Assembly: GCF_018499875.1 (NCBI RefSeq)
Contig: NZ_JAHBAY010000009.1
Coordinates: 1 to 64,000 of the forward strand
Direction of reading: 5' to 3'
From: Kineosporia corallincola
Lineage (GTDB): Bacteria > Actinomycetota > Actinomycetes > Actinomycetales > Kineosporiaceae
DNA length: 64,000 nucleotides
This document shows positions 7,545 to 56,873 of this stretch, piece by piece. The first letter of the stretch is position 1; every line of letters starts with the position of its first letter. The position numbers were made by a program, and so were the translations under genes. Under the pieces are notes generated by a model. It was given only the letters and a program-made list of their open reading frames with translations. It was not told the origin of the DNA and did not search any database.

Positions 7545-7581
7545 GGACGACGGGGAGCCCGGCACGGGCTCCCCGTCGTCC
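7545..7581 (+). terminator. Perfect 16-bp hairpin ending the iron operon (GGACGACGG family)
   Basis: The arms GGACGACGGGGAGCCC (7545-7560) and its exact complement (7566-7581) pair around a 5-base loop. It starts 8 bp after the permease stop codon. There is no U-tract, as is common for actinobacterial terminators. The stem sequence recurs at other gene ends in this window. Confidence 0.8.
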
Positions 7582-7615
7582 TCAGTTCTGGCTCTGCCCT
7601 GCCGACGGTGGTGGG

Positions 7616-8995
7616 ATGGACGTGTCGACGCCGCGGACCAGGACAACCGGTGCGGCAGGCATCGTGATCACGGGTGCGGTGATCGCCGGGACCACCGGCG
7701 TGATCACCTGGCTGGCCCGCCGTGCCGCCCGGACCTGGCTGCTGGACCAGGACATTCACGACTTCGGGTTCTCCTCGCCGTGGCTGCACGTCGCGGCGAT
7801 GGCCGGGATCGGGACGGTCGCGGTGGCCACGGCCGCCGGGCTCGCCGCCGGGCGGCACCGGCTGATCGCCCTCGCGACGCTGACCGGGGCGGTCGCGGGG
7901 CCGATGACGCTGGTGGCGGCGCCGGTCTCGGAGTCGCTGGTGCGCGAGGACGGCACGGACACCGTGGCCGCCTGGCACCTGGCGGTCGGCGCGGTCCTGC
8001 TCGCGGTGCTGGCCGCCGGCACCTGGTGGACGGCCCACCTGCGCGGCGTCCGGCCGGAGAACGACCGGGGGACAGGCATTCCCGTCGGCGCGCTGTTCCT
8101 GATCGTGACCGCCGCCTGCCTGGCCGCGCAGTCGCCGATGACGGGTGACCCGGAACGTCCCCAGCTGGTGGTGGCGGCGGGCTGGTCGCTGCTGGTGGCC
8201 GGTGGGCTGGTGGCGGGGGCGCTGAGAGCCGGCGGTGCGGCCCGGACCGCTCTGGCCGCCCTCGCCCACGCAGGTGTGCTGCTGGTGATGGCCCTCGCCT
8301 ACCTGCGGCCCGGCGGCTGGCCGGGTGTGGCGGGCTGGGAGGTGTGGGGGCAGTCGCCGGTCGTGCTCACCGCCGTCACCGCCGGGACGTTCGCGGCCGC
8401 GCCGGTGCTGGGCCGGCTGACCGCCCGGCTGACCGCCCGGCTGCGCGCCCGGCCGGTGGCTCCACCCACGCATCCGGCCGCGCCCGCCGACCTGGCCGCG
8501 CCCGCCGACCCGGCCGTGAACGTCCACGAAACCCAAGGCGTCCACGAAACCCCGCGCGTCCACCCGGTACTGACGCTGGCGCTGGCCCTCGCGCTGGTGA
8601 CCGCGGTGGCCGTCCCGGTGACCCGGCACGTGCAGCAGACCCGCAGCCGGGAGGCGTCCGAGCGGGTGCGGACACTCGCCACCACCCTGGCCGGCCCGGC
8701 CCCGATGACCGACCTGGTGATGCACCGCGACTGCAACGGGACCGGCCTGGTCTACTGCGGCTGGACCACCGGAGGCACCCCGCGCGAGCTGGTGACGACC
8801 GTGCGGGACGCGGTGATCCGGGCGACGGGGGAGCGGCCCCGGGTGACCTGCCGCCCCGGGCCGAGCGGCTACAGCTGCGAGGTGCAGGTGTCGGACGGCG
8901 GGCACCAGGTGTTCTTCATGCTGGACCCCGAGACGGACCGGGTGGACGGCCGGCTCACCACGGTGGGCACGCGCTACGTGGTCCAGACGAGCTGA
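7616..8995 (+). CDS. Polytopic membrane protein with C-terminal Cys-containing domain, unknown
   Basis: A 459-residue protein I do not recognise. Eight or nine hydrophobic segments lie between residues 13 and 340, the last near 318-336, and a soluble C-terminal domain of about 115 residues follows. That domain holds four cysteines, in HRDCNGT, VYCGWTT, VTCRPG and YSCEV, which could form two disulfides outside the cell. A flexible Ala/Pro linker with repeated APAD and VHET motifs precedes the last helix. The ATG has a GGTGGG sequence just upstream. It lies alone between two hairpins, so it is probably transcribed on its own. No function is proposed. Confidence 0.75.
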   Translation: MDVSTPRTRTTGAAGIVITGAVIAGTTGVITWLARRAARTWLLDQDIHDFGFSSPWLHVAAMAGIGTVAVATAAGLAAGRHRLIALATLTGAVAGPMTLVAAPVSESLVREDGTDTVAAWHLAVGAVLLAVLAAGTWWTAHLRGVRPENDRGTGIPVGALFLIVTAACLAAQSPMTGDPERPQLVVAAGWSLLVAGGLVAGALRAGGAARTALAALAHAGVLLVMALAYLRPGGWPGVAGWEVWGQSPVVLTAVTAGTFAAAPVLGRLTARLTARLRARPVAPPTHPAAPADLAAPADPAVNVHETQGVHETPRVHPVLTLALALALVTAVAVPVTRHVQQTRSREASERVRTLATTLAGPAPMTDLVMHRDCNGTGLVYCGWTTGGTPRELVTTVRDAVIRATGERPRVTCRPGPSGYSCEVQVSDGGHQVFFMLDPETDRVDGRLTTVGTRYVVQTS

Positions 8996-9002
8996 CAACC
9001 AG

Positions 9003-9052
9003 AACGGGGGACGACGGTGAGCTCCGTCAGGAGCCCACCGTCGTCCCCCGTT
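9003..9052. terminator. Bidirectional terminator hairpin (GGACGACGG family)
   Basis: Arms 9003-9025 and 9030-9052 form a 23-bp stem with a single mismatch and a 4-base loop. It fills the gap between two convergent genes ending at 8995 and 9062, so it can end transcripts from both sides. The core GGACGACGGTGAGC resembles the hairpins at 7545, 40839 and 56826. Confidence 0.8.
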
Positions 9053-9061
9053 CGAGAGAAG

Positions 9062-10528
9062 TCAGGCCTCGACCGGCTGGGCCGGTGCCGACTCCGGCTG
9101 AGCACCCGGGGTGTCCTGCCCGGTGGCCGGACGGGCCGCCGGGATGAACGCCGCGACCAGCGCGGACACCAGGCAGACCGCTCCGCCCAGCACCAGCGCC
9201 ACCCGGAAGCCGTTCTCCGAGGCCAGAGTCACGCCACCCAGGTTCATCGTCATCTGGGCCAGCACCACGCCGATCACGGCCGAGCCGATGGTGGTGCCGA
9301 GCGAGCGCATCAGCGTGTTGAAACCGTTGGCCGCGGCGGTTTCCGACATCGGCACGGCACCCATGATCAGCGCCGGCATCGAGCCGTAGGCCAGGGCCAC
9401 ACCGCTGCTGATCACGATCCCGGTGATCATCAGGCCCAGGGCGGTGCCCATCAGCACCAGGGCCAGGCCGTAGCCGACGGCGATCACCAGGGCGCCGGTG
9501 GCCAGGGTGAACTTGGGGCCGCGCGAGTCGATCAGCTTGCCGCCCAGCGGCGAGATGACCATCATCGTCAGGCCGCCGGGTGCCATCCACAGGCCCGCCG
9601 CCAGCATCGACTGGCCCAGGCCGTAACCGGTGGCCTCGGGCAGCTGGAGCAGCTGCGGGAACACCAGCATCTGGGCGTACATGCCGACACCGACGAACAC
9701 CGAGGCGATGTTGGTCATCAGCACCCGCGGGCGGGCGGTGGTGCGCAGGTCGACCAGCGGGTCGGTGGTCCGGGTCTCCCACCAGCCCCAGGTGCCGAGC
9801 GCGACCACGGCCAGGGCGAACAGGCCGAGCGTGGTGCCGGAGGCCCAGCCCCAGTCGGCGCCCTTGCTGATCGCCAGCAGCAGCGACACCAGGCCCACGG
9901 CCAGGCCGAGCGCACCCGGCAGGTCGAAGCGCTGGCCCCGGGCGGCGGCCGGGGTGGCCGGGACGAAGGTCCAGATCAGCGTGCCGACGACGGCCGCGAG
10001 AACGGCCGCGCCCCAGAACAGCACGCGCCAGCTGGTGTACTCGGCGACCGCCGAGGCGATCGGCAGGCCAAGGCCGCCGCCGATCCCCATCGAGGCGCTG
10101 ACCAGGGCGATGGCGCCGGACAGCCGGGCCGGGGGCACCACGTCGCGCAGCATCGCGATGCCGAGCGGCACGATGCCCATGCCCAGGCCCTGCATGCCGC
10201 GGCCGACGATCATCGGCACCACGGAAGTGGCCAGGGCACAGATGACCGAGCCGGCCATCAGCGGCACGGTGCAGGCCAGCAGCATGGTGCGCTTGCCGAG
10301 CAGGTCGCCCAGGCGGCCGGCGATCGGCACCGCGACACCGGCCACCAGCAGCGTGACGGTGATGACCCAGGCGGCGTTGGAGGCGGGGGTGTCGAGGATC
10401 TGCGGCAGCTCGGCGATGAGCGGCGTGACGAGGGTCTGCATGATCGCGGCCACCGTGCCGCCGAACGCCAGGGTGGCGATGACGGCTGTCGGGTGCGGCT
10501 TCTCTGCGGGGGATTCAGGGGTGTTCAA
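9062..10528 (-). CDS. MFS multidrug/solute exporter (DHA2-like, 14 helices)
   Basis: A drug:proton antiporter of the major facilitator superfamily, about 488 residues with around 14 hydrophobic segments. The motif A region (GRLGDLLGKRTML) follows helix 2 and motif C-like glycines lie in helix 5. I place the start at the TTG at 10528, where GGAG sits seven bases upstream; a longer reading from 10591 would run through the operator region and lacks a ribosome site. It is divergent from a MarR regulator across a short operator-bearing gap, the usual arrangement for an exporter induced by its own substrate. The substrate is unknown. Confidence 0.88.
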   Translation of the reverse strand: MNTPESPAEKPHPTAVIATLAFGGTVAAIMQTLVTPLIAELPQILDTPASNAAWVITVTLLVAGVAVPIAGRLGDLLGKRTMLLACTVPLMAGSVICALATSVVPMIVGRGMQGLGMGIVPLGIAMLRDVVPPARLSGAIALVSASMGIGGGLGLPIASAVAEYTSWRVLFWGAAVLAAVVGTLIWTFVPATPAAARGQRFDLPGALGLAVGLVSLLLAISKGADWGWASGTTLGLFALAVVALGTWGWWETRTTDPLVDLRTTARPRVLMTNIASVFVGVGMYAQMLVFPQLLQLPEATGYGLGQSMLAAGLWMAPGGLTMMVISPLGGKLIDSRGPKFTLATGALVIAVGYGLALVLMGTALGLMITGIVISSGVALAYGSMPALIMGAVPMSETAAANGFNTLMRSLGTTIGSAVIGVVLAQMTMNLGGVTLASENGFRVALVLGGAVCLVSALVAAFIPAARPATGQDTPGAQPESAPAQPVEA

Positions 10529-10568
10529 GCCGAGCTCCAGGAGAGGACCAAAGACATCGTGTGTACGA

Positions 10569-10583
10569 TGCACATACTGTGCA
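10569..10583. promoter_or_regulatory. Palindromic operator between exporter and MarR genes
   Basis: TGCACATACTGTGCA is a perfect 6-3-6 inverted repeat, flanked by two direct copies of ACGATGCA. It lies between the divergent exporter and MarR genes, the expected place for autorepression by MarR. Binding is inferred, not shown. Confidence 0.6.
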
Positions 10584-10635
10584 CGATGCATATCGTTGAT
10601 GCAAGCAACCAGGCGGTGCGCGTGGGAAACTCGAC

Positions 10636-11115
10636 GTGGACCGGCCGGAAACAGTTGCGGAGTGGGTAGTGGGCAGGCGCACGGAGCAGATCGAGTACGA
10701 GCAGATGCTGCTGCAAAGACATTCGCTCGGATCGCTCGACACCCGGCACTTCCTGGAACGCAGCGCCTACATCCTGCTCAGCCGCATCCGGGTGCAGGGG
10801 CCGATGTCGATCGGTGAGCTCAGCGAGGCGCTGCGGCTCGACGCCTCCACCCTCAACCGGCAGACGGCGGCCGCGGTCAAGGCCGGGCTGCTGCTGCGCA
10901 TCCCCGACCCGGACGGTGGCATCGCGCGCAAGTTCGCGGTGACCGAGCTGGGTGGCGAGAAGCTGGACGCCCAGCGGGAACTCACGGTCAACGGGCTGGA
11001 CCTGCTGATGTCCGAGTGGAGCGACGAGGAGATCGCCACCTTCGGCGCCTGCCTCAAACGCTTCAACATGGACATCGAACGGCACCTCGGTCAGATCTGG
11101 CCCCGCCCCACCTGA
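10636..11115 (+). CDS. MarR-family transcriptional regulator
   Basis: A 159-residue protein with a winged helix-turn-helix in the middle (MSIGELSEALRLDASTLNRQ as recognition region, wing around DPDGGIARKFAVTELG) between dimerisation helices at each end, the MarR layout and length. It most likely represses the divergent exporter and itself until a ligand binds. The GTG at 10636 is chosen because it keeps the first helix; the upstream GGGAAA is a weak ribosome site. The gene ends 16 bp from the stop codon of a convergent response regulator gene. Confidence 0.88.
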   Translation: MDRPETVAEWVVGRRTEQIEYEQMLLQRHSLGSLDTRHFLERSAYILLSRIRVQGPMSIGELSEALRLDASTLNRQTAAAVKAGLLLRIPDPDGGIARKFAVTELGGEKLDAQRELTVNGLDLLMSEWSDEEIATFGACLKRFNMDIERHLGQIWPRPT

Positions 11116-11136
11116 CCTCGAACCGGGCCGGTCAGG
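11111..11136. terminator. Short hairpin spanning two convergent stop codons
   Basis: CCTGACC (11111-11117) pairs with GGTCAGG (11130-11136). The arms include the stop codons of the MarR gene and of the convergent response regulator, so this 7-bp hairpin is the only terminator candidate in the 16-bp gap. Confidence 0.45.
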
Positions 11137-11815
11137 GCAGCGCGCGGCGGGTGGCCGGGGTGACCAGCCCGCTCTCGTAGGCGAACACCACCAGCTGCGC
11201 CCGGTCCCGTGCGCCGGTCTTCATCATCGCCCGGTTGACATGGGTTTTCGCGGTCGCCGGGCTGATGAACAGCCGCTCGGCGATGTCCTGGTTCGACAGC
11301 CCCGCCCCGACCAGCGTGGTGATCTGCTTCTCCCGCTCGGTCAGGTGCACCAGGGTCTGGGTGCTCACCCCGGTGGTGATCTGCGGCTGCTCCAGGAACC
11401 GGGCGATCAGCGCGGTGGTGGCGCTGGGCGACAGCAGCGACTCACCGGCCGCGATCGTGCGCACCGCCTGCACCAGCTCGTCGGGCGAGGCCCCCTTGCC
11501 GAGGAACCCGCTGGCCCCGGCCTGGAGCGCCCGCACCACCAGCTCGTCGGTCTCGAACGTGGTGAGCACCAGGATCCGCACCCCGGCCAGGTCGTCGTCG
11601 GCGGTGATCCGGCGGGTCGCCTCGATCCCGTCCAGGTCCGGCATCCGGATGTCCATCACCACCACGTCGGCCCGGGTGCTGCGGGCCAGTTCGACCGCCT
11701 CGTAACCGGTTCCGGCCTCACCCACCAGGTCGATGTCCGCGATCGCGGCGAACAGCAGGCCGAGCGTGGAGCGCAGCAGGGCCTGGTCGTCGACGAGCAG
11801 CACGCGAATGGTCAT
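11132..11815 (-). CDS. NarL/LuxR-family response regulator
   Basis: A 227-residue regulator: receiver domain with acidic pair in LLVDDQ, phospho-acceptor Asp55 in VVMDIRMPD, and a C-terminal LuxR-type helix-turn-helix (LTEREKQITTLV, then SNQDIAERLFISPATAKTHV). It is the partner of the DesK-like kinase encoded one base upstream and closes a three-gene operon headed by an MMPL membrane protein. By analogy with such operons it probably controls the MMPL gene in response to membrane or envelope stress, but no binding site was identified. Confidence 0.92.
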   Translation of the reverse strand: MTIRVLLVDDQALLRSTLGLLFAAIADIDLVGEAGTGYEAVELARSTRADVVVMDIRMPDLDGIEATRRITADDDLAGVRILVLTTFETDELVVRALQAGASGFLGKGASPDELVQAVRTIAAGESLLSPSATTALIARFLEQPQITTGVSTQTLVHLTEREKQITTLVGAGLSNQDIAERLFISPATAKTHVNRAMMKTGARDRAQLVVFAYESGLVTPATRRALP

Positions 11816-11816
11816 G

Positions 11817-13022
11817 TCAGGCCTCGTTTCTCAGCGGGATGGTGGCGATCACGGCGAAACCCCCGGCGGGCACCGGGCCGGCGTTCAGGGTGCCGCCGAC
11901 GGTGACGGCGCGCTCGCGCATGCCGATCAGCCCGTGCCGGGTGCCCGGGCCCTGATGACCGGCCGGGCGCCCGGGCGGGGCCGGGTTGGTGATCCGCAAT
12001 GTCAGGGTGTGCTGCTGCCAGTGCAGGTCGACGGTGACCGGTGCGCCGGGGGCGTGCTTGGTGGCGTTGGTGACGGCCTCCTGCACGATCCGGTAGGCGG
12101 CCAGGTCCTTGCCGGAGGGCAGCTCCACCGCGTCACCGCTGACGGCCAGGACCAGGTCGGCCCCCGCCGCCCGGAAGCCGGCCAGCAGGTCGTCCACCTG
12201 GTGCAGTCCGGGGGCCGGGCGCAGCGGGTCGTCGGGAGGGTGGCCGGTCTCGCCGTCCTGGCGCAGCATCCCGACCGTGGCCCGCAGCTCGTCCAGCGCC
12301 CGGCGGGTGTTGCCGGCGATGTCGCGCAGCGCCCCCGAGGCCGCGTCCGGGTCCGAGCGCAGCAGGTAGTCCGCCACCCCGGCCTGGGCGTTCACCAGGG
12401 TCAGGTGGTGGGCCAGCACGTCGTGCAGATCCTGGGCGATGCGCATCCGCTCGGCCACCACCTCGCCACGGATCTGCGACACCCGCTCCCGCTCGTCCCG
12501 CACGATGCGCTCGCGCCGGTGGCTCACCAGCACCCCCGCGCCGACCGCGATGATCACCAGGTCGAGCGCCACGAAACAGGTCACCAGCAGCGCGTGGTCC
12601 TGCATCAGGACGCCGGTCAGCAGCAGTGTCACCCCGGCCAGCGCCCCGGGCAGCCAGCCGGCCCGGCCGTACCGCCTGGCGGCCAGGGTGAAGGCCGCGG
12701 CCATGGTGGCCAGCGGCACCGGCTGGAACGCGCCCATCACCTCGTTGGCGTTCGGGTGGGGGCCCACCGACACCCCGAACGCCACGTGCACCATCTCGAT
12801 CAGGGTGACCGCGACCAGCGCGCCGAGCGGATGCCGGCGGCGCAGCAGCAGCGGCGCCCAGGACAGCAGCACCAGCCCGGTCAGCTGCGGCCCGGGCAGG
12901 TCGCGGCCGCCCTCCCGCACCGTGGCGGTGACGAACATGACCGCCAGATAGGCCAGGTCGAACGCGGGCCAGGCCCAGGAGAGTCGCCTCTCCCGGGCCT
13001 GGACCGCCACCGTGGAACTCAT
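11817..13022 (-). CDS. DesK/NarX-type sensor histidine kinase
   Basis: A 401-residue kinase with about six membrane helices in the first 165 residues and almost no external loops, as in DesK, which senses membrane state. A coiled linker leads to the HisKA_3 box DLHDVLAHHL with phospho-acceptor His200 and an ATPase domain with QEAVTNATKHAPG and the GLIGMRERA motif near the end. The ATG at 13022 overlaps the stop codon of the MMPL gene as ATGA, so the genes are translationally coupled; the longer upstream reading is rejected. The response regulator follows after one base. Confidence 0.92.
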   Translation of the reverse strand: MSSTVAVQARERRLSWAWPAFDLAYLAVMFVTATVREGGRDLPGPQLTGLVLLSWAPLLLRRRHPLGALVAVTLIEMVHVAFGVSVGPHPNANEVMGAFQPVPLATMAAAFTLAARRYGRAGWLPGALAGVTLLLTGVLMQDHALLVTCFVALDLVIIAVGAGVLVSHRRERIVRDERERVSQIRGEVVAERMRIAQDLHDVLAHHLTLVNAQAGVADYLLRSDPDAASGALRDIAGNTRRALDELRATVGMLRQDGETGHPPDDPLRPAPGLHQVDDLLAGFRAAGADLVLAVSGDAVELPSGKDLAAYRIVQEAVTNATKHAPGAPVTVDLHWQQHTLTLRITNPAPPGRPAGHQGPGTRHGLIGMRERAVTVGGTLNAGPVPAGGFAVIATIPLRNEA

Positions 13023-15223
13023 GACCGGTTCGAGACCCTTTCGTCCCAGTTCTGCTGTGTCCCGGGCAGATCGCCGTCGTAGCTGTATACCGCCTCGGCG
13101 GGCTCCGGCGTCTGCGCGTTCTCCAGCGCCAGCCGCGGCGTGACCGCGTCGAGCGCCCGGGGGTACCACCAGTTGGCCCGGCCGATCAGCGTCAGCAGTG
13201 CCGGCATCAGGGTCAGCCGGATCACGAACGCGTCGACGACCACCGAGATCGCCAGGCCCAGGCCGAGCGCCGACACGATGCGCTCGCCGCTGAAGCCGAA
13301 CGAGGAGAACACGGCCAGCATGATGGTGGCGGCGGCCACGATCACCCCGGCGCTCTCGGCCAGGCCGGCCCGCACCGCGCGCCGGTTGTCGCCGTCCCGG
13401 TGGAACTCCTCGTGCATCGAGCTGACCAGGAACACCTGGTAGTCCATCGACAGCCCGAACATCACGCCGGCCAGCATCACCGGCACGATGTACATCACCG
13501 GGGCGCCGGTACCGACACCGAGAAGCTCACTGCCCCAGCCGAACTGGAAGATCGCGGTGACCACGCCCAGGCCCACGCAGATCGTCGCCAGGTTCGACAC
13601 CGCGCCCAGCAGCGGCACCAGCAGGCTGCGGAAGGCCAGCACCAGCAACAGGAATCCGAGTACGGCGACCAGGACCAGGTACACCGGCAGCTTGTCCATC
13701 AGGGCGTCCGACATGTCGATGTTCGTCGCGGTGGTGCCGCCCACGTGCACCTGCATCGCGGTGCCGTTCCCGGCCTGCGGGATCACCGTCTCGCGCAGCC
13801 GGTGCACCAGGTCGGAGGTCTCCTCGGTCTGGGCGCTGGAGCTGGGCGTGACCGCGGCCACCGAGAGGCCCCCGGACTGCGAGGTGACCACGGCCGAGGC
13901 CACGTCCGCGGTGCCGGGCAGGCTCGCGACCATGCTGCCGAAGGCCTTCTCCGAGGCAGCGTCGGGGGTTTCGCCGACCAGCAGCAGGGTGGCGTCGGCG
14001 CCCTCGCCGAAACCGGCCGACATCAGCTCGAAGTAGGCGTGCGAGGCGGAGTCGGCCGGGTCGCTGCTGGCGTCGGCGTTGCCCACCCGCATGCTCAGCG
14101 CCGGGTAGGCCAGGGCGGCCACGGCCACCAGGGCGGCCAGCACGGCGAGCAGGGGACGACGCTGGACCGCGCCCGCCCAGCGCCACGACAGACCCTGCCC
14201 GGCCGGCGCCGGCGGACCGGTCAGGCCGCGACGCTGCCTGCGCGAGAGCACTTTCAGTTTCAGCACCCGCAGCAGCGCGGGCAGCAGGGTGTTGGCGGCG
14301 ATCACCGTGCAGAACACCGTGAAGGCCGCGGCGAAGGCCATCCCGGTCAGGATGCCCATACCGATCACGTACATGCCCAGCAGCGCCGCCATCACGGTCA
14401 GCCCGGCGAAGATCACCGCCCGGCCGGAGGTGTTCAGCGCCTGCGCCACCGCCGAGGGCACGTCGGCCCCGGCGACCAGGGCCTTGCGGTGCCGGTTGAC
14501 GATGAACAGGGCGTAGTCGATGCCGACGCCCAGGCCGATCAGCGCGCCCATCGTCAGGGCGTTCGACGACAGGTCCACCACGTGCGAGATCACCATTACG
14601 CCGAGCATCGACACCGCCACCCCGGCCACGCCGGTGACGATCGGCAGCATCGCGGCGGCGAACGAGCGGAACACCAGCAGCAGCAGGAGCAGGGCCACCA
14701 CCACGCCGAGGCCCTCGGTCATCCCGCCGGCCGCGGGCTGCTCGGTGAACGCCGTGCCGCCCAGCTCGATCTCCAGGCCGTCCGCGCGGGCGGCCGCCAC
14801 GGCGTCCTCGATCGGCCCGGTGTCGGCGTCGGTGGTCAGGGTGACCGTGGCGAAGGCGGTGTCCGCGTCCCGGTTCAGCTGGCTCGCGCCGGCCTTCGTG
14901 TAGGGGCTGACGACCGAGACCACGCCCGGCTCGTCGGCCACGGTGGCGAGCAGTGACGAGATCGCCGAGCGCGTCGCGCCGCCGGTCACCGACGCGTTGT
15001 CGCTGTGCCAGACGATCTTTCCGCTCTCGGTGCCGGCGGAACCGTCGCCGGCCCGGGCCAGCAGGCTGTAGGCGGTGGCGGACTCGCTGTCCGGCAGGTC
15101 GGTGGAGTCGGTGAAACTGGTTCCCTTGCCGATCGCCAGCCCGCCGAGGGCGAGCAGGACGACCAGCCAGGTTCCGAGCACCAGGTACCACCGTCGGGTG
15201 CACCAGTTCGCAAGGCGGACCAC
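13019..15223 (-). CDS. MMPL/RND-family membrane transporter
   Basis: A 734-residue transporter of the MMPL family. Two matching halves are visible: a first helix (WYLVLGTWLVVLLALGGLA), an extracytoplasmic domain of about 130 residues, five clustered helices with the signature GLGVGIDYALFIVNR, then a second half with VMFGLSMDYQVFLVS. These paired GxxxDY motifs carry the proton-relay Asp residues of the family. MMPL proteins export lipids, siderophores or drugs. It heads an operon with its own two-component system. The 5' leader carries an imperfect hairpin at 15256-15293. The substrate is unknown; mycolate-type lipid export is possible but not supported here. Confidence 0.92.
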   Translation of the reverse strand: MVRLANWCTRRWYLVLGTWLVVLLALGGLAIGKGTSFTDSTDLPDSESATAYSLLARAGDGSAGTESGKIVWHSDNASVTGGATRSAISSLLATVADEPGVVSVVSPYTKAGASQLNRDADTAFATVTLTTDADTGPIEDAVAAARADGLEIELGGTAFTEQPAAGGMTEGLGVVVALLLLLLVFRSFAAAMLPIVTGVAGVAVSMLGVMVISHVVDLSSNALTMGALIGLGVGIDYALFIVNRHRKALVAGADVPSAVAQALNTSGRAVIFAGLTVMAALLGMYVIGMGILTGMAFAAAFTVFCTVIAANTLLPALLRVLKLKVLSRRQRRGLTGPPAPAGQGLSWRWAGAVQRRPLLAVLAALVAVAALAYPALSMRVGNADASSDPADSASHAYFELMSAGFGEGADATLLLVGETPDAASEKAFGSMVASLPGTADVASAVVTSQSGGLSVAAVTPSSSAQTEETSDLVHRLRETVIPQAGNGTAMQVHVGGTTATNIDMSDALMDKLPVYLVLVAVLGFLLLVLAFRSLLVPLLGAVSNLATICVGLGVVTAIFQFGWGSELLGVGTGAPVMYIVPVMLAGVMFGLSMDYQVFLVSSMHEEFHRDGDNRRAVRAGLAESAGVIVAAATIMLAVFSSFGFSGERIVSALGLGLAISVVVDAFVIRLTLMPALLTLIGRANWWYPRALDAVTPRLALENAQTPEPAEAVYSYDGDLPGTQQNWDERVSNRS

Positions 15224-15255
15224 GTGTTTCTTCTTTCGGCAGGGGCTGAAGGGGG

Positions 15256-15293
15256 GGACGACGGGTGCCCGTGACCGGGCTTCTCGTCGTGCC
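15256..15293. repeat. Imperfect hairpin resembling the GGACGACGG family
   Basis: Left arm GGACGACGGGTGCCCG (15256-15271) and right arm 15276-15293 pair imperfectly around TGAC. The sequence resembles the hairpins at gene ends elsewhere in the window, but this copy lies in the 5' leader of the MMPL gene, between divergent genes, and looks decayed. Confidence 0.5.
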
Positions 15294-15347
15294 TCTCACT
15301 CTTGCGCCGCCGGGCCGCCGCGACGTCAGCCGTGGGGTGCGACCGGT

Positions 15348-15365
15348 GTACCGCGATCGCGGTAC
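15348..15365. promoter_or_regulatory. 18-bp perfect palindrome upstream of sodN
   Basis: GTACCGCGATCGCGGTAC reads the same on both strands. It lies about 30 bp upstream of the sodN -35 box and within the divergent MMPL-sodN region, so it is a candidate operator for either gene. I do not recognise the binding protein; it does not look like a known nickel (Nur) box. Confidence 0.5.
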
Positions 15366-15393
15366 CCGTGCCGGTTACGACCCGGCAAGCTGC

Positions 15394-15424
15394 TTGACCT
15401 CAACTCGAGTTGAGGTCCTAGCGT
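15394..15424 (+). promoter_or_regulatory. sodN promoter with MerR/SoxR-type operator and 19-bp spacer
   Basis: A -35 TTGACC (15394-15399) and a -10 TAGCGT (15419-15424) are separated by 19 bp, longer than the usual 17. The spacer is filled by a perfect 22-bp palindrome (15396-15417) whose half-site CCTCAA is that of SoxR-type MerR regulators. Long spacers with an internal palindrome are the hallmark of promoters that MerR-family activators twist into shape. The -10 ends seven bases before the sodN ATG. Confidence 0.75.
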
Positions 15425-15431
15425 CCACCGC

Positions 15432-15833
15432 ATGAGGATCTTCGCCCGCACCCACACCGTGTCCGCACACTGCGACCTGCCCTGCGGCGTCTACGACCCG
15501 GCCCAGGCCCGGCTCGAGGCCGAGTCGGTCAAGGCGGCCGTCACCAAGGCCCTGGCCTCCGACGACGAGGTGTTCCGGGCCCGCGCGCTGGCCGTCAAGG
15601 AGGAGCGGTCCGACCTGGTGAAGCACCACCTGTGGGTGCTCTGGACCGACTATTTCAAGCCCGCGCACTTCGAGGCATACCCGCAGCTGCACGGCCTGTT
15701 CAACGAGGCCACCAAGCTGGCCGGGGCCGGCGGCACCAAGGGGTCGTGGGACCCGGCCGTGGCCGACCGCCTGCTGGAGAAGATCGACGAGATCGCCACG
15801 ATCTTCTGGGAGACCAAGAAGGTGGCGGCCTGA
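15432..15833 (+). CDS. sodN: Nickel-containing superoxide dismutase
   Basis: A 133-residue precursor of the nickel superoxide dismutase, which converts superoxide to peroxide and oxygen. The nickel hook HCDLPCGVYDP is intact, with His13 becoming the new N-terminus after a 12-residue leader is removed; Cys14 and Cys18 are the nickel thiolates. Downstream helices match the family (LVKHHLWVLWTDYFKPAHFE and IFWETKK). Maturation normally needs the SodX peptidase, whose gene usually sits next to sodN but is not seen in this window. The ATG has no Shine-Dalgarno sequence and lies seven bases after a -10 box, so the message is likely leaderless. A gene of unknown function follows 10 bp downstream. 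Confidence 0.96.
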   Translation: MRIFARTHTVSAHCDLPCGVYDPAQARLEAESVKAAVTKALASDDEVFRARALAVKEERSDLVKHHLWVLWTDYFKPAHFEAYPQLHGLFNEATKLAGAGGTKGSWDPAVADRLLEKIDEIATIFWETKKVAA

Positions 15834-15843
15834 AGGTGGTGTC

Positions 15844-16416
15844 GTGAACTACGAGAACCCGGTCGCCACACTGTTTCCCGGGGCGGCCGGGCGCACCGTG
15901 GCCGAGCTGGCCCGGCAGCACGCGCTGGGCCGGCTCGTGGTCGACGTGCGCTCGGCGTCGGCCGCGGCGGCGGTGGTGCCCGAGCAGTTCACCAGGGTGG
16001 CGCTGCGCCTGGCCCTGCTCGGGCTGGTCACCTTCCCGGTCGGCGAACAGGTGGTGCTGGTACCCGAGCACGTGCTCTGGCCGGCCCTGGCCGAGCTGGC
16101 CGACCCGCAGCCGCGGATCGACCAGCTACTGCGCCGGGTCGCGGCCACCTGCTCACCGGTCACCCGGATCGCGGTGGCCGGGCCGGTGGCGGCGGGCACG
16201 GCCCGCACCTTCCCGGAACGGCTCGACGTCGCCCTGATCGCCCCACCCGGCAGCGTCTCGGTGGAACAGGAGGACGACGTGGCGGCCCATCTGTCCCGCG
16301 CCCTCGGAAACGCGTGCAGCGTGGTCGTGGTGGAGGACGACGAGGAGGCCGCGCGCCTGCTGCCCGGGACCGGGTTCCGCGTCGTCGGGGCGGAGGGGAT
16401 CCCGGCGGTCCGCTGA
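15844..16416 (+). CDS. Hypothetical protein co-transcribed with sodN
   Basis: A 190-residue protein starting at a GTG, 10 bp after sodN and so almost surely in its operon. It has no signal peptide or clear membrane helix. The first half is alpha-helical with a possible winged-helix character; the second half (IAVAGPVAAGTARTFPERLD, then VALIAPPG) is faintly like a nucleotidyltransferase fold with a degenerate active site, but I do not trust that. It does not resemble the SodX signal-peptidase-like maturase, since no Ser/Lys dyad is visible. Its position suggests a role in SOD maturation or nickel handling, which is inference only. Confidence 0.65.
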   Translation: MNYENPVATLFPGAAGRTVAELARQHALGRLVVDVRSASAAAAVVPEQFTRVALRLALLGLVTFPVGEQVVLVPEHVLWPALAELADPQPRIDQLLRRVAATCSPVTRIAVAGPVAAGTARTFPERLDVALIAPPGSVSVEQEDDVAAHLSRALGNACSVVVVEDDEEAARLLPGTGFRVVGAEGIPAVR

Positions 16417-16491
16417 CCGGTCAGTCCACCGGCTCCAGCACGAGCACCGGCTCCCGGTTCCCGCACCGCGAACGGTGGGTGATTCCGGGCC

Positions 16492-17325
16492 TCAGGACAG
16501 TTCCCGGATCCGGGCGTTCCGCCAGCGGCAGGCGGCGCCCGGCCCCCAGCGGGACTCGCCGAACACGGCGTCGTTGTCGTGCACCTCCAGGGCGATGTGC
16601 CCACGGGCGCCGAGCAGTTCCGCGATCCTGGCCGGGTCGTAGTTCGGCACGTCGATCGCCGCGGTGTTCAGCTCGGCGATCTCCAGGTCGTTGACCCAGG
16701 TGGTGATGGTCGGCAGGGCGCCGCCCACGCACAGCACCCGCAGCTCGTTCCAGTCGTCCCAGCGCCAGACCCGGAGGAAGTCGTCCACCTCGGCGGCGTA
16801 CGACAGCAGGCGCCGCTTGGCCGGGGTGAGGGGTTCCTGGGACGACGCCGGGTCGTCCTCGCGCAGGCCGGTGCCGTTCCCGTCCTGGTCCCGTTCCAGG
16901 TCCAGGGCGAACGGGACAGCGTGGAAACTGGCCAGGCCGTTGCCGAAGAACCCGCCGATCGAGCCGGACCGCCGGTGGTCCACCAGCACCTGGAAGCCCT
17001 CCCAGCTGTCCGGGCGGCGGCGCAGCATGACGCCGGTGTCGGCGGGCCAGTCCGGCTTCACCTCGATCACGAGCTCGAAGTCACCGTAGGCCTTCTCGGT
17101 GATCAGGTAGCCGCCGTAGCCGGGGGTGCCCTGCCGGCCGACCACCACGCCGTCCTCGACCGCCCAGACCGCCGGGTGCTTCTCCGGCTCGACCGGGGGT
17201 TCGAGGCCCAGCCGGGTGAGGGTCTCGGAGATGTCCGGCCCGCCGGGGTACTCCGCGCCGTACACCCGGGGGATCGCCCGCCAGCCGTTCAGCGTGCTGC
17301 CGTCGAACAGGTCGGTGAAGGTCAC
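16492..17325 (-). CDS. DUF1080 / 3-keto-disaccharide hydrolase domain protein
   Basis: A 277-residue protein made almost entirely of the DUF1080 fold, a concanavalin-like sandwich now named the 3-keto-disaccharide hydrolase domain. It opens with the signature FTDLFDGSTLNGWR, followed by WAVEDGVVVGRQGTPGYGGY, the ELVIEVKPDWPADTGVMLRR core and GFQVLVDHR. No signal peptide is seen, so it should act in the cytoplasm. The GTG start overlaps the stop codon of the MFS gene as GTGA, showing coupling to sugar uptake. With a Gfo/Idh/MocA dehydrogenase and TIM-barrel enzymes in the same cluster it likely splits an oxidised (3-keto) glycoside. Confidence 0.85.
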   Translation of the reverse strand: MTFTDLFDGSTLNGWRAIPRVYGAEYPGGPDISETLTRLGLEPPVEPEKHPAVWAVEDGVVVGRQGTPGYGGYLITEKAYGDFELVIEVKPDWPADTGVMLRRRPDSWEGFQVLVDHRRSGSIGGFFGNGLASFHAVPFALDLERDQDGNGTGLREDDPASSQEPLTPAKRRLLSYAAEVDDFLRVWRWDDWNELRVLCVGGALPTITTWVNDLEIAELNTAAIDVPNYDPARIAELLGARGHIALEVHDNDAVFGESRWGPGAACRWRNARIRELS

Positions 17326-18644
17326 TTGACGCCCCTGACCGGAAGCAGCGCCAGGGCGCCGAGGATCGCGAACACCACACCGGCGAAGAACACGGCCTGG
17401 TAGTTCTGGCCGGTGCCGCCGATGGCCAGGAAGAGCGGGGCGATGGCCGGGGCCAGCGACTGCGGCAGACTGTTGGCGATCTGGAACACGCCCATCGCCT
17501 TGGCGGCGCCCTCGTCCTTCGGGATGACGGCGGCGGCCACCGCGATGTCGACCGAGTAGTACAGGCCCTGGCCGAGACTCGTCACCGCGGCGCCGACGAT
17601 GAACTGGTTGAAGGTGTCCGAGGTGCCGATCAGCACCAGGCCGGCACTGACGATCAGCGCGGCCACGCCGACGAACGGCTTGCGGCGGCTGAGCCGGTCG
17701 GACAGCCAGCCACCGGTGATCGAGATGAACACGGTGATGACAGCGGTCACGGTGGTCGAGAAGAACACGAACGACGCCAGTTCCGAGGTGCTGACGTTCA
17801 GGTGGTCGCTGAGGAAGTAGGCCTGGTAGGTGGTGAGGAACGCGGTGCCGACGAACACCAGCAGGCGGCTCAGCAGGGCGAAGGAGAAGTCCGGGTAGCG
17901 CACCGGGTTGATCCAGAACGACAGCGCCAGGTCCTTGGCCCGGAACCGGCCCACGGTGGCCCGGTCGGCGGGCGTGTCCGGGAAAACCGCCAGCAGCAGC
18001 CCGTATCCGATCGGGATGAGCAGCCACGGCACCAGGAACATCGCGATCGTGCTGCCGGTGGTGTACTGCGTGACCCAGGTGCCGAGCATCATCGCCAGGG
18101 TCGCGGAGAGTCCCAGCAGGCCGGACATCCGGCCGCGCTGACCCTCCGGCACCACGTCGGGCAGGATCGCGTTCATCGCGGCCTGGTTGAACTGCGAGCC
18201 CACCTGGCAGATCAGCCAGCCCAGCCCGAGCAGCCACATGTTCGGCGAGAACGCGATGATCGTGAGGCCGAGCAGCAGGAACGCGCCGCCCGCCACGATG
18301 TGCGGGCGCCGCCGGCCCCACCGCGAGGTGGTGCGGTCGGACAGCGTGCCGGCGATCGGCGCGGCCACCATGCAGCCGAAAGCGCCCACGCTGAGCACGT
18401 ATCCGAGCTGGGTGGCGCGCTCGGCGGCGGTGGTGATCTCGGAGACCCGCAGGGCGATCGTCACCACGACCGGGGTGAGGATGCCGACCCAGGCGGCCAC
18501 CTGGGCGAAGAAGTAGATGAACATGAACCAGCCGGAGACCGGTTCGGTGGGCTCGGCGCCGTGCGGGTTGCTCGGCCGGATCCGGGCCAGGAGACCGCCG
18601 GGGGCGACGAGCGGTGGTGACGTGGGTGCATGGAGGTCGCTCAT
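17322..18644 (-). CDS. MFS sugar/glycoside transporter
   Basis: A 440-residue major facilitator with 12 predicted helices. The loop after helix 2 has the motif GTLSDRTTSRWGRRRPHI, the RWGRRRP pattern typical of the GPH/SLC45-like sugar branch rather than of drug exporters, and a weaker repeat (GWLSDRLSRRKPF) lies after helix 8. A Shine-Dalgarno-like AGAGGA lies upstream of the ATG. It is coupled by a 4-base overlap to the DUF1080 gene and lies in a leftward sugar cluster, so it probably imports the glycoside that the cluster degrades. The exact substrate is unknown. Confidence 0.88.
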   Translation of the reverse strand: MSDLHAPTSPPLVAPGGLLARIRPSNPHGAEPTEPVSGWFMFIYFFAQVAAWVGILTPVVVTIALRVSEITTAAERATQLGYVLSVGAFGCMVAAPIAGTLSDRTTSRWGRRRPHIVAGGAFLLLGLTIIAFSPNMWLLGLGWLICQVGSQFNQAAMNAILPDVVPEGQRGRMSGLLGLSATLAMMLGTWVTQYTTGSTIAMFLVPWLLIPIGYGLLLAVFPDTPADRATVGRFRAKDLALSFWINPVRYPDFSFALLSRLLVFVGTAFLTTYQAYFLSDHLNVSTSELASFVFFSTTVTAVITVFISITGGWLSDRLSRRKPFVGVAALIVSAGLVLIGTSDTFNQFIVGAAVTSLGQGLYYSVDIAVAAAVIPKDEGAAKAMGVFQIANSLPQSLAPAIAPLFLAIGGTGQNYQAVFFAGVVFAILGALALLPVRGVK

Positions 18645-18905
18645 GTGGACCAGTCCTCTTCTTTGAGACGGTTCGCGAGGGGGAGCCGGGGGTTCAGGGC
18701 GTGAGAAGGACTGCGAGGGTGTGCAGGTCGGCGGCGAAGCCGTCGAGGTGCGTGGTGCTCCCGGCGGTGACGGGGTGGCCTTCGTGGGCCGGGGTCGGGC
18801 AGGGTCACGGTGGTGACGGAATCCGTTGTGTGGAAGCGGATCACCTGGTGCGGTGCGAGAACTGAGGACGACGAGATGAGCAGGCGCACCCTGTCACTGG
18901 GGTGC
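18645..18905 (-). pseudogene. Possible gene remnant with a frameshift, 261-bp gap
   Basis: This gap between two same-strand genes has no intact gene but keeps coding character. On the minus strand one frame reads QVIRFHTTDSVTTVTLPD and, one base out of phase, the next reads HLDGFAADLHTLAVLLTP before a stop codon. Together they could be the tail of one lost protein split by a frameshift. I do not recognise the family, and chance open frames are common at this GC content, so this is tentative. Confidence 0.3.
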
Positions 18906-19799
18906 TCACGCCGGCGTCCCGGTGTAGAAGTCCTGCCCGGTGAGGAATTCCAGCGCGAAGCGCGAACTGGCCATCCGGTCGGGCAGGTTCGGCACGTCCA
19001 CCTCGACCACGGTCCAGCCGTCCCAGTCCTGCGGCAGCGCGGCCATCACCCGGGCGAAATCGATCTGGCCCCGGCCCGGCTCGATCCAGACGTGGCGCTT
19101 CAGCGTCGCCGTCATGTAGTCGTCGCCGGCGCTCAGGGCGGCGGCGCGGGCGGCCGGGTCGACGTCCTTCACGTGCAGGGCCACCACCCGGTCGGCGTAG
19201 TCGCCGATGATCGACACCGGGTCGGCGCCGGCCCACACCAGATGGCCGGTGTCCGGGCCGAAACCCAGTGCGCCGCCCGCGGACCGGTCCAGCACCTCAC
19301 GGATCTCCGACTCCACCTCGACCAGCGACCCGACGTGCGGGTGCAGCGCGTAGCGCACCCCGGTCGAGGCGGCGGCCTCGGCGGCCAGGGCCATGCCCTC
19401 GGCGATCACCGCGGCCGAGCCGGTGAAGTCACCGGCACCCACGGCGGGCGCGGCGATCCGCTCGGGCACCAGGTCGTTGGCGATGAACGCCTGGTCCAGG
19501 CCGAAGTGGGCGTGGGCCTCGGCGTGCCGCTTGATCCCCTCGACCAGCCCGGCGTGCGCCTCACGGTCGTGGAACGCGCCGGAGAAGTAGCCCGGTGCCG
19601 GGGCCATGCCGTTCCTGGCGAAGAGCGCGCCGTAGTCCGGAACGCTCATCTCCGCGGGCCATTCCACCGTCATCGCGGTGTAGCCGGTGGCCTTCAGGTC
19701 GCTCAGGGCGGTGTCGACCACCCCGGCGTTCAGGTTGTAGGCCAGGTCGCCCAGAATCCAGGGCAGCGGGTTGATGCTGAGACGATGCATCTTTGCCAT
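18906..19799 (-). CDS. TIM-barrel sugar isomerase/epimerase-like protein
   Basis: A 297-residue protein of the xylose-isomerase-like TIM-barrel superfamily (AP endonuclease family 2 clan). The expected metal-site pattern is visible: Glu in YTAMTVEWP, His in ALHPHVGS, Asp and His in GFGPDTGHL, His in VALHVKD, and a late Glu in WTVVEVDVP. Such enzymes isomerise, epimerise or eliminate sugars and keto-sugars using a divalent metal. The ATG is preceded by GGAG. It lies 20 bp after a Gfo/Idh/MocA gene, so the pair is probably one operon in which the dehydrogenase product is passed on. Exact reaction unknown. Confidence 0.85.
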   Translation of the reverse strand: MAKMHRLSINPLPWILGDLAYNLNAGVVDTALSDLKATGYTAMTVEWPAEMSVPDYGALFARNGMAPAPGYFSGAFHDREAHAGLVEGIKRHAEAHAHFGLDQAFIANDLVPERIAAPAVGAGDFTGSAAVIAEGMALAAEAAASTGVRYALHPHVGSLVEVESEIREVLDRSAGGALGFGPDTGHLVWAGADPVSIIGDYADRVVALHVKDVDPAARAAALSAGDDYMTATLKRHVWIEPGRGQIDFARVMAALPQDWDGWTVVEVDVPNLPDRMASSRFALEFLTGQDFYTGTPA

Positions 19800-19819
19800 C
19801 GTTCGACTCCAGTTTCTGG

Positions 19820-40726: not shown

Positions 40727-40838
40727 CGTACGCCTGACGCCACGGCCGGGACCGCGGGTCCCGGCAGTGCGCGGAAAAGGGCTGGCTGTCGATGGGAGCT
40801 TCGCCGGCGGCGTCGGCCCCTGGATCGGCACCGGCGAA

Positions 40839-40883
40839 TCATGGACGACGAGGAGCCCGGACCGGGGCTCCCGTCGTCCATGA
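40839..40883. terminator. Bidirectional terminator hairpin (GGACGACGG family)
   Basis: TCATGGACGACG (40839-40850) pairs with 40872-40883 and GGAGCCC (40852-40858) with 40865-40871, with one bulged A and a 6-base loop. It lies between convergent genes ending at 40726 and 40904. Confidence 0.8.
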
Positions 40884-40903
40884 ACTGACCGCCGAACGCC
40901 CGC

Positions 40904-44905: not shown

Positions 44906-44909
44906 GCGG

Positions 44910-45518
44910 TCAGGTGCGGTCGAGCAGGCGCGCTGCCCCGAGCACCACGAGCGCGCCCAGCAGCCAGCCCGCCACCACCTCACTGATCCAGTGGTAGCCC
45001 AGCACCAGGTTGCAGATCCCGACCACCACGGCCATCAGCACGGCCGCCGCCAGCGCCCGGCGCCGGGCCCGGCCGGCCGCGCCGGTCAGCAGCACGGCGA
45101 TCAGCGCCAGGCACATGGTGGCGTTGGCGGTGTGCCCCGAGGGGTACGAGGAACCGCCCACCAGCACCTCGTTCAGGCCGCTGTGTGGTGACGTGCGCCC
45201 GGCCAGGTGCTTGGAGGTCAGGAGCAGCACGTCGAGGGTCACCACGGCGACCGCGGTGACCAGGAACGGGTGCCACGACCGGGACCACCAGGAACGGGCC
45301 AGGCCGATCACCGCGGCGGCCGTGCCGACCAGCCAGAACTGGCCGCCCATCACCAGGGTGCGCCAGACCAGGTGCCCGGCGCCGGGCCGGTCGAGCACGG
45401 TGAACCAGCCGAGCGTCGCGTCGTCCACCGTCAGGCTCGCACCGGCGACGACGAGCAGGGTGAGCCCGATCAGGACGGCCCAGCCGGCGAGCCACCTCGC
45501 CGTCCATGATCGTGTCAC
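44910..45518 (-). CDS. PAP2-superfamily membrane phosphatase
   Basis: A 202-residue protein with about six helices and the three-part phosphatase motif: KHLAGRTSP, SYPSGHT and GYHWISEVVAG (the last with the catalytic His). Members dephosphorylate phosphatidic acid, undecaprenyl diphosphate or other lipid phosphates at the outer face of the membrane. An ATG with no strong ribosome site starts it at 45518. It is convergent with the HutD-like gene with only a 4-bp gap and no terminator between them. A hairpin of the GGACGACGG family lies 110 bp upstream of its start. Confidence 0.88.
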   Translation of the reverse strand: MTRSWTARWLAGWAVLIGLTLLVVAGASLTVDDATLGWFTVLDRPGAGHLVWRTLVMGGQFWLVGTAAAVIGLARSWWSRSWHPFLVTAVAVVTLDVLLLTSKHLAGRTSPHSGLNEVLVGGSSYPSGHTANATMCLALIAVLLTGAAGRARRRALAAAVLMAVVVGICNLVLGYHWISEVVAGWLLGALVVLGAARLLDRT

Positions 45519-45628
45519 GTGGATCTCAGCTCCTGGTCGGGTGCGGGCGGGCGCCCATCATCGCAGGGGCGCGCGGCCCGGCCGCACCAGGATGCCGTGA
45601 GCGCGTCACCGGTGCGGTGGTGGCCGGC

Positions 45629-45673
45629 ATCATGGACGACGGTAAACCGGTGGCGGCCCCCGTCGTCCATGAT
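45629..45673. repeat. GGACGACGG-family hairpin upstream of a decayed methyltransferase
   Basis: ATCATGGACGACGG (45629-45642) pairs perfectly with 45660-45673 around a 17-base inner part. Unlike the copies at gene ends, this one lies between the divergent PAP2 gene and the remnant methyltransferase, and its right arm ends three bases before that gene's ATG. Confidence 0.7.
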
Positions 45674-45675
45674 TG

Positions 45676-46121
45676 ATGCTGGCCCGCATGGACCCATCGG
45701 TGATCGCGCACTACGGAACGGATTCCGCCGAGGCGACACGACTTTCCCGCTCGCCGCACGGGCGGCTGGAGTTCCTGCGCACGCAGGAGCTGATCCGCCG
45801 CCACAGCTCGGGGCCGAGGGGCGGCTCACCCACGACCTGCTGCCGGGCATCGAAAAGGTACTGAGCACTGGCGATTACGACGGGCACGCGGGCTTCGTGC
45901 CGGCCCGGTTCCACACCGCGCCGGAGCTGCTCGGCGAGGTGGGGGCGGCCGGTTTCGCCGGGGCCGGCGTGTTCGGGGTGGAGGGCCCGGCCTGGCCGGC
46001 CGCGGACGTCTCCGGGCGCCAGGACCTGGGTGCCGCCCTGCGCTGCGCGCGCCTGGTGGAGCAGGACCCGGCGATGATCCACGCCAGTGCGCACCTACTG
46101 GCGTTCGCCCACCGGCTCTGA
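45676..46121 (+). pseudogene. Methyltransferase pseudogene with internal deletion and frameshift
   Basis: The first 40 codons read like the start of a class I SAM methyltransferase (DPSVIAHYGTDSAEATRLSR, then GRLEFLRTQELIRRH). At about 45800 the frame ends in nonsense, while a different frame continues with the C-terminal part of the same family (RLTHDLLPGIEKVLSTGDYD, FHTAPELLGEVGAAGFAG, VFGVEGPAWPAAD). The SAM-binding middle, about 100-130 residues, is missing. The simplest reading is one deletion that also shifted the frame. The C-terminal end overlaps the end of a second decayed gene on the other strand by 27 bp. Confidence 0.8.
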
Positions 46122-51308: not shown

Positions 51309-51339
51309 GACGCCGATGATGCCAGCCGCGCGCGGGCCG

Positions 51340-51345: not shown

Positions 51346-51351
51346 GGGGCC

Positions 51352-55332: not shown

Positions 55333-55419
55333 GCGACGGATCCCTCCCGTGCTCGCACCCGGTCCTCTGCGCTGATCATCATCCCGGTTCACCGGGAATC
55401 CGGGGCGGAATCGGGCGGA

Positions 55420-56769
55420 TCAGGTGGTGGCGCGGGTCAGCCGCTCGATGCCGCGCAGCAGGTCGGCCTGGGTGATCGGCCCGGGTGCGCCGCCCCGGGC
55501 CTCGGCCATGGCCTTCTCCAGCCGGGCCCGGCGCAGCACCTCGGCCAGGTCGGCTCCGGACAGCCCGGCCGCCTGCCGGGCCAGCCCGGAGACATCCAGG
55601 TCGTCGGCGAACATCCGGAAACCGTCTGCGGTGTGCCGGTTCTGGAGGGAGCGGATCTGCTTGGCCAGGATGTCGGCCCGGGCCCGGGCGCCGGGCAGCG
55701 GAACGGCCAGCTTCACGTCGAAACGGCCCGAGCGGATCAGGGATTCGTCCACCCGGTCGGGAAAGTTGGTGGTGGCCACCACGATCACGTTCGGGTTGAC
55801 CTCGGCCAGGTCGTTCATCTGCTGCTTGAAGATGCCCGCCACCGAGTTGACCGCCTGGTCGGCCGAGCCCCGCGGCCGGCCGGCGTAGCCGATGATGCTG
55901 TCGAACTCGTCGAACAGCAGCACCGTGGGCGAGGTGTAGCGGCGGGCCCGCTCGAACACCCGGGTGATGTTGCGCTCGGAGGCGCCCATCCAGCGGTCGA
56001 GGATGTCGCTGCTGCGCACCTCTTCGAGGGTGCCGCCGATCTCCTGGGCCAGGGCCCGGGCCAGGGTGGTCTTGCCGGTGCCGGGCGGTCCCCACATCAG
56101 GATGCCCTGCGGCCGCCGCGCGCCCCAGCGGGCCATCACCTCGGGGTGCCGGAACGAGTCGGCCACGTCGCGCAGCTGGGCCACCACCTCGTCCAGGCCA
56201 CCCAGGTCGTCGAGCCGCACGGCGTCGGGTTCGTCTGCGGCGCCGGTGGTTTCGCCCGGCAGGCCGATCCGGAAGGCGCGCCCGGCCAGATAGGGTGCGG
56301 CGCCGGCTCTGCGGGCGCCCAGTCGCACCGTGATCCGCAGCAGGGCGGCGAGCGTGCGCGCGGTGAGCCGATCGGCCGGCACGGTGACCAGGGCCCGGTC
56401 GGTGACCCGGCCGTCGAGCAGGGGACGCCCGGCGAGGGTCGTGGCGGTGAGCTCACCTTCGGTGAGCGGCCGGCCGGGTGGGCCCTCGAACAGCCGGCCC
56501 AGCGCCTCCAGCACCGGCGCCACCTGGTCGGCGCCGATCATGAACTGGTGCAGCGGACCGTCGAAACCCGGCTCCCGCAGGGTGATCCGGCCCTCCAGCC
56601 GCACCCCGCCCGGCTCGCGGGTGCAGAACAGGCCGAGCTGGGGCGTGCCGGTGCCGGTGCCGGTGAGCACCGGGTGGGTGATCCCGTCCGGCCCGGTGAG
56701 CACGCGGGCGATCACCTCGTCGGCGGCGGCGAGGTCGAACCGGCCGCCGGCGGCCTCGAAGGTGTCCAT
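55420..56769 (-). CDS. Single-domain AAA ATPase with unknown N-terminal domain
   Basis: A 449-residue protein. The first 180 residues form a domain I do not recognise. The AAA module is complete: Walker A GPPGTGKT (227-234), Walker B VLLFDEFDS (about 278-286), sensor 1 VVATTNFPDR, the second region of homology with the Arg finger in IRSGRFD, and the lid helices ending ADLAEVLRRARLEKAMA. It resembles CDC48/FtsH-like AAA modules more than clamp loaders. No protease domain is attached. The ATG follows TATCGT by six bases and no ribosome site is seen, so the mRNA may be leaderless. Partner unknown. Confidence 0.88.
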   Translation of the reverse strand: MDTFEAAGGRFDLAAADEVIARVLTGPDGITHPVLTGTGTGTPQLGLFCTREPGGVRLEGRITLREPGFDGPLHQFMIGADQVAPVLEALGRLFEGPPGRPLTEGELTATTLAGRPLLDGRVTDRALVTVPADRLTARTLAALLRITVRLGARRAGAAPYLAGRAFRIGLPGETTGAADEPDAVRLDDLGGLDEVVAQLRDVADSFRHPEVMARWGARRPQGILMWGPPGTGKTTLARALAQEIGGTLEEVRSSDILDRWMGASERNITRVFERARRYTSPTVLLFDEFDSIIGYAGRPRGSADQAVNSVAGIFKQQMNDLAEVNPNVIVVATTNFPDRVDESLIRSGRFDVKLAVPLPGARARADILAKQIRSLQNRHTADGFRMFADDLDVSGLARQAAGLSGADLAEVLRRARLEKAMAEARGGAPGPITQADLLRGIERLTRATT

Positions 56770-56775
56770 CCCATC

Positions 56776-56781
56776 ACGATA
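56776..56781 (-). promoter_or_regulatory. -10 box of leaderless AAA gene
   Basis: On the minus strand TATCGT ends six bases before the ATG at 56769. Confidence 0.4.
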
Positions 56782-56825
56782 ATCGCGCTTTCGCCGGGGT
56801 GCAGGGCAGCGTGGCACGGGTTCGC

Positions 56826-56873
56826 AATCATGGACGACGGAAGCCGCGACCGGGCTCCCCGTCGTCCATGATT
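56826..56873 (-). terminator. Terminator hairpin of the SDR gene (GGACGACGG family)
   Basis: AATCATGGACGACGG (56826-56840) pairs perfectly with 56859-56873, and AGCC with GGCT inside. It lies just after the SDR gene on the minus strand and upstream of the AAA gene. Confidence 0.8.

Follow-up and report, generated by a model that had tools for sequence, protein, structure and literature searches.

Intrinsic terminators are thought to require a structure and a tail, and no fixed stem sequence. Why, then, do hairpins scattered between genes in Kineosporia corallincola share the same stem? We address this with the first 64,000 nucleotides of contig NZ_JAHBAY010000009.1 (positions 1-64,000, "the window"). 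A first-pass annotation of this DNA had listed five good hairpins and a sixth, decayed one, named here by their starts (7545, 9003, 40839, 45629, 56826 and 15256), and had suggested a repeat family of the REP or MITE type, a binding site, or a DNA-uptake-like signal that doubles as a terminator.

A hairpin family in the window and the genome

The window contains the following hairpins, given with their surroundings and the z score of the fold:

7535-7591: family hairpin with a GGACGACGGGGAGCCCG/CGGGCTCCCCGTCGTCC stem, at the 3' end of 5422-7536(+), FecCD-type permease; z -7.2
8999-9056: family hairpin in the convergent gap between 7664-8995(+) and 9062-10528(-), MFS transporter; z -10.0
15246-15303: weak family copy, probably decayed, lying between 13019-15181(-), MMPL, and 15432-15833(+); z -5.7
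40833-40889: family hairpin with an ATCAT/ATGA flank, in the convergent gap between 38069-40726(+), aldehyde/alcohol dehydrogenase, and 40904-42460(-), GAF-GGDEF; z -6.8
45624-45678: family hairpin with an ATCAT/ATGAT flank, adjoining the start of 44910-45518(-), PAP2; z -4.0
56822-56877: family hairpin with an ATCAT/ATGAT flank, at the 3' end of 56880-57659(-), short-chain dehydrogenase; z -5.2

Read directly from the sequence, the five good hairpins lie where the first-pass annotation had placed them, and each of the six folds beats every one of its own 200 shuffles (z -4.0 to -10.0). With filters off, our model R1 recovered all five good copies from either strand, scoring 43-72 bits with E values no higher than 1.1e-10; these five were its training set, so their scores are partly by construction, while the folds and the exact-pattern counts below are independent of it. 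At 15246-15303 the match was weak (22.7 and 18.3 bits, E 2e-4 and 0.004), making the sixth copy a weak relative whose decay is probable. Rfam gave no match in the window at the gathering score.

The finer description held as well: the ATCAT/ATGAT flank accompanies 40839, 45629 and 56826, a GGAGCCC-like run occurs on at least one arm in four of the five good copies, and four of the five sit at gene 3' ends, two of them (9003 and 40839) convergent. The 7545 hairpin begins 8 nt past the stop of 5422-7536(+) by our own gene calling. Neither 15256 nor 45629 has a clear gene 3' end; the latter has intact core arms and a poorly pairing inner stem, and the nearby ORF 45711-46094(-) has no Pfam match.

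Across the 8.2 Mb genome, the exact pair GGACGACGG...CCGTCGTCC occurs 24 times, against 0 for the reversed pattern, and on this count we reject a chance origin. The genome-wide count and the comparison with gene 3' ends that the first-pass annotation had called for thus favour a real hairpin family, far above chance and placed like terminators. The 9-mer alone, with one mismatch allowed, is not enriched (87 in the window vs 75.5 expected), and the signal is therefore the paired arrangement. A covariance model built on the 24 copies found at least 84 distinct sites among the matches listed, with at most 150 candidates scored per genome, and a model trained on congeners, together with pattern lists, added 25, giving 109 copies to try. 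Our arm finder failed on two of these and on two of 79 congener copies, leaving 107 and 77 for analysis.

The loose pattern GGACGNCG...CGNCGTCC has 318 matches in this genome vs 33-63 in five congeners, suggesting roughly 270 copies, a figure that draws only on the congener comparison: the same pattern has 39-651 matches in other genera of Kineosporiaceae that lack the hairpin family according to the model (reversed controls 4-16), and so depends on base and codon make-up. The congener-trained model (E below 0.001) finds 6 copies in 184 kb of K. corallincola DNA and 1 in 249 kb of congener DNA, although five of those six fall in the window, which was itself picked for them (five good copies in 64 kb, vs one copy in another 120 kb of the genome). 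K. corallincola clearly has more copies than its congeners, by an uncertain factor of about two to eight. Its 22-base core pattern occurs in only 6 stretches of the whole genome contig collection, own and near-own records left out, and a literature search conducted mostly without subscription papers found no description of this hairpin family.

Stem anatomy and placement at gene ends

From the outside inward, an arm reads roughly AA, Y, N, R, N, GGACG, followed in K. corallincola by ACG, two free bases, GAGC and a variable inner part. GACG served as the alignment anchor, so its invariance in the anchored alignment is no test; it is also invariant in unanchored MAFFT alignments, on copies that a pattern or model had selected. 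Elsewhere in the stem, the arms change together: positions -4, -3, -2, +7 and +8 pair at 0.64-0.86 vs 0.33-0.53 expected, none of 500 shuffles reached the observed covariation, and genus-wide 17 of 24 pairs have changes on both sides. The hairpin is thus kept. Two kinds of base pair coexist in the stem, one nearly fixed, the other free in letter yet paired. For the most part, free positions in the outer stem are not linked to those in the inner stem (shuffles reaching the observed value: 12 to 474 of 500), and the shared unit stops at the hairpin boundary, with flanks that appear unrelated by eye. An A is found at -6 in 83% and at -7 in 77% of K. corallincola arms.

The copies are concentrated at gene ends. 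Among the 107 K. corallincola copies, 59 are convergent, 33 co-directional and 2 divergent, with 1 at the edge of a locus and 12 within called genes, which may be gene-caller errors (one duplicate, L243, is left out of this and the near-identity tallies). The 77 congener copies comprise 46 convergent, 30 co-directional and no divergent ones, plus 1 inside a gene. By comparison, gaps of at least 30 nt in 184 kb of K. corallincola DNA hold 10,065 divergent bases vs 2,323 convergent ones. The median distance from stop codon to stem is 15 nt (16 nt in the congeners), and 138 of 151 K. corallincola distances are 30 nt or less.

These features resemble those of bidirectional intrinsic terminators: a stable hairpin just past the stops of convergent or co-directional genes, with short A and T tracts. 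Long, symmetric stems flanked by A and T tracts are what a two-way terminator would look like, and we infer termination from this anatomy and position. At co-directional congener copies, the downstream T tract exceeds the gene-side A tract in 20 of 30 cases, and the reverse is never seen; the K. corallincola copies are nearly symmetric (16 vs 11 of 33). A terminator consensus scan of positions 1-20000 flagged only the 7545 and 9003 copies of the family, on the minus strand only, with no overall excess of terminator-like sites in that interval (5 vs 3.5 expected). Strong gene-end hairpins without the family stem are also common in this genome.

Congener dialects at shared gene ends

We compared six genomes of one genus: K. 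corallincola (G000) and five congeners (G001-G005) about 80% alike in DNA. The congeners hold the family too, with the GGACG...CGTCC base in common and other inner stems, such as GGACGCCGGTGGGCACC in G001 or the AATTGAGGACG bases in G002, and inner stems are mixed within a single congener genome. Each congener has at least 62-104 model matches, counted on both strands, vs 0-2 in five genomes of the other genera of Kineosporiaceae. A strict search with one congener dialect found 10 copies in G001, 2 in G003 and 1 each in G002 and G004, with none in K. corallincola or G005. Position +4 is A in 189 of 216 K. corallincola arms (the L243 duplicate counted) vs 30 of 154 congener arms. We regard the family as a variant among sequence-conserved gene-end hairpins.

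Flank alignment to 205 kb of K. corallincola loci places at least 22 of the 79 congener copies at gene ends where K. corallincola has a family copy. Against 184 kb of contiguous K. corallincola DNA, three of the 79 align, two of them onto a family hairpin. The family thus belongs to the whole genus, and some gene ends carry a copy in several species. At the third aligned copy (locus L057 of G001), the corresponding K. corallincola gene end (L125:19681-19736) has a non-family hairpin. Conversely, no congener region examined has a family copy at the orthologue of the 7545 or the 9003 gene end. The end of 7545 has a hairpin of another family in G002 and G005, a weak unrelated hairpin in G003 and no hairpin found in G004, while that of 9003 has unrelated hairpins in four congeners and none above threshold in the fifth. 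Such differences indicate that sites are gained and lost, in other words turnover as well as drift.

The other family in G002 and G005 is typified by GATCATGCAAAACCTCCCC; its arm matches by strand number 76 and 78 in G002 and 52 and 66 in G005, with none in the other four genomes. It too lies at gene 3' ends, including the congener gene end matching 7545 (congener loci L129:10027-10105, L128:10029-10086, L136:5068-5144, and L137:8786-8864 and 16500-16576).

Does a shared site mean a shared stem? Orthologous pairs have a mean stem similarity of 0.589 (n 21, one of the 22 pairs being missing from this test), nearly the same as non-orthologous cross-species pairs (0.582, n 294). Within K. corallincola the figure is 0.793 for the same set (n 105) and 0.666 for all own pairs, both inflated, as these copies were first gathered with an own-dialect model. 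The congener-trained model also finds a minority of K. corallincola copies with other cores, one of which (L245) is nearly of congener type. Among the congeners alone, similarity within species exceeds that between species by 0.088, with 0 of 300 permutations as high. All five show the difference, which is strong in G001 (0.694 vs 0.55), slight in G003 (0.539 vs 0.505) and barely present in G004 (0.545 vs 0.534). Two orthologous G002-G005 pairs are very alike (0.78 and 0.84). Since orthologous stems are no more alike than unrelated ones, while copies within K. corallincola are more so, these data point to concerted evolution of terminators. Among the copies examined, the stems seem to change together within each genome.

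Copying, recognition or mobility

The explanation we favour, which in its entirety we consider about as probable as improbable, is that these hairpins are two-way intrinsic terminators of a genus-wide family, with stems homogenised by the copying of modules between hairpins. On either strand, a copy would present an A tract, a hairpin some 20 base pairs long that carries GGACG/CGTCC close to the base, and a T tract; with these elements on both sides, polymerase arriving from either gene should stop, and each copy would then act as a terminator in both directions. As to the cause of the dialects, which we hold more loosely, it would most likely be that similar hairpins copy or replace one another's terminator modules, through short recombination or template switching, and that the results are kept where termination is good. 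Near-identical pairs (distance 3 or less) in K. corallincola number 13, vs a mean of 0.55 in column shuffles (0 of 200 as high) and 6.5 in whole-block shuffles (10 of 200 as high, a weak excess). Simple recent copying from one master is weakened as an account, as block shuffles explain most of this near-identity, though not all. Mostly unlinked outer and inner parts, together with the excess of near-identical pairs, fit either module exchange or selection by a reader, and we lean towards exchange.

Such a reader would be a hypothetical sequence-specific factor that binds the gene-end hairpin, as RNA or as extruded DNA; its taste would drift and the sites follow, by co-evolution instead of copying. 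The nearly fixed base pairs beside free but paired ones suit a recognition site, as do a shared unit that ends with the hairpin and the lack of linkage between the free outer and inner positions. However, this genome has many strong gene-end hairpins that lack the family stem, inner stems of different kinds occur together in one congener genome, and near-identical pairs exceed chance; we rate this possibility low. It is likewise unlikely that the dialects reflect a putative trans-acting termination or RNA-binding factor that reads the stem, with a specificity shifting by species and terminators following at unlinked orthologous ends.

A mobile palindromic repeat, REP- or MITE-like, might instead have multiplied in this species and survived where it did least harm, beside stop codons. 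The higher copy number in K. corallincola and the seemingly lineage-specific sites at 7545 and 9003 would fit, and the available text on GTAG- and CGTC-tagged REPs describes high-copy short palindromes placed alike, usually less than 20 bp away from convergent gene 3' ends, or within about 20 bp when co-directional genes are included (PMC3733652). Those REPs, however, are described there as stems of 8-9 bp with an unpaired tag at one end and a CCA-like tail (PMC3733652), whereas in the K. corallincola hairpins GACG pairs with CGTC within a symmetric stem some 20 bp long, and there is neither an unpaired tag nor a conserved outer end. The Y1/RAYT transposase (PF01797) was not found in the K. 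corallincola assembly (a draft, 97% complete) or in four of the five congeners; CGTC REPs, in the same account, also lack a known transposase (PMC3733652). That 22 or more of the 79 congener copies lie at shared ends fits old sites better than recent insertion, and divergent or promoter-side copies are very few, though selection could cause that. REP membership, as proposed in the first-pass annotation, is thus not borne out, and a MITE fares no better, with no conserved outer end or terminal inverted repeats and an outer stem that varies by paired changes. We consider a mobile repeat quite unlikely.

DNA-uptake signals that double as terminators offer another parallel, in which paired-signal hairpins with species dialects are known (PMC1852404, PMC3630211). 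As far as these accounts describe them, the DUS/USS terminators of Neisseria and Pasteurellaceae share with our family a fixed word and its complement in hairpins, gene-end placement, A/T tails and dialects, and differ in that the word is also abundant singly (PMC1852404, PMC3630211). In K. corallincola, GGACGACG is indeed commoner outside hairpins than in the congeners (52.2 vs 22.6 per 100 kb), and the G_G context of GAC-GAC codon pairs is more frequent (128/618 vs 84/593). However, the increase in single arms is not specific: over 166,562 aligned bases, GGACGACG occurs 101 times vs 60 in the congeners, and the related 8-mers CGACGACC (76 vs 46) and CGACGACG (103 vs 71) rise about equally. 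Moreover, 62 of 108 single copies share a reading frame in which they encode Asp-Asp, and the 14-base half-site is rare outside hairpins. The uptake signal, also raised in the first-pass annotation, is extremely unlikely.

Finally, ordinary terminators might independently favour such GC-rich stems, with no family at all. In its favour, GGACGACGG stems also mark gene ends in another, unrelated family of the order (8 exact pairs in G017), yet the 24 exact pairs vs 0 for the control, the 6 stretches with the 22-base core outside this genome and the gene ends shared with congeners make it very unlikely. That unrelated family has gene-end hairpins of its own with GGACGACGGCGGGA stems (exact pairs 8 in G017 and 5 in G035), six of which we inspected in G017 (L237-L240, L170 and L180).

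Two further known systems resemble this family. Bidirectional intrinsic terminators, as far as they are described in PMC12207403, share the order of A tract, hairpin and T tract, and A tracts are said there to be virtually absent in Streptomyces; unlike the present family, ordinary ones need no fixed stem sequence. The bacterial stem-loop sequence families of PMC2267715 are likewise repeated, intergenic, species-specific and alike in sequence, although the available part of that account does not mention orthologous gene ends with different dialects.

Across the six genomes, the genus keeps a fixed stem base at its gene ends while the remaining stem changes in concert within each genome. We found no transposase and nothing that points specifically to uptake. 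Either terminators pass as copies from one locus to another, or they are read by something; both possibilities bear on the origin of terminators and on the spread of repeats such as REPs.
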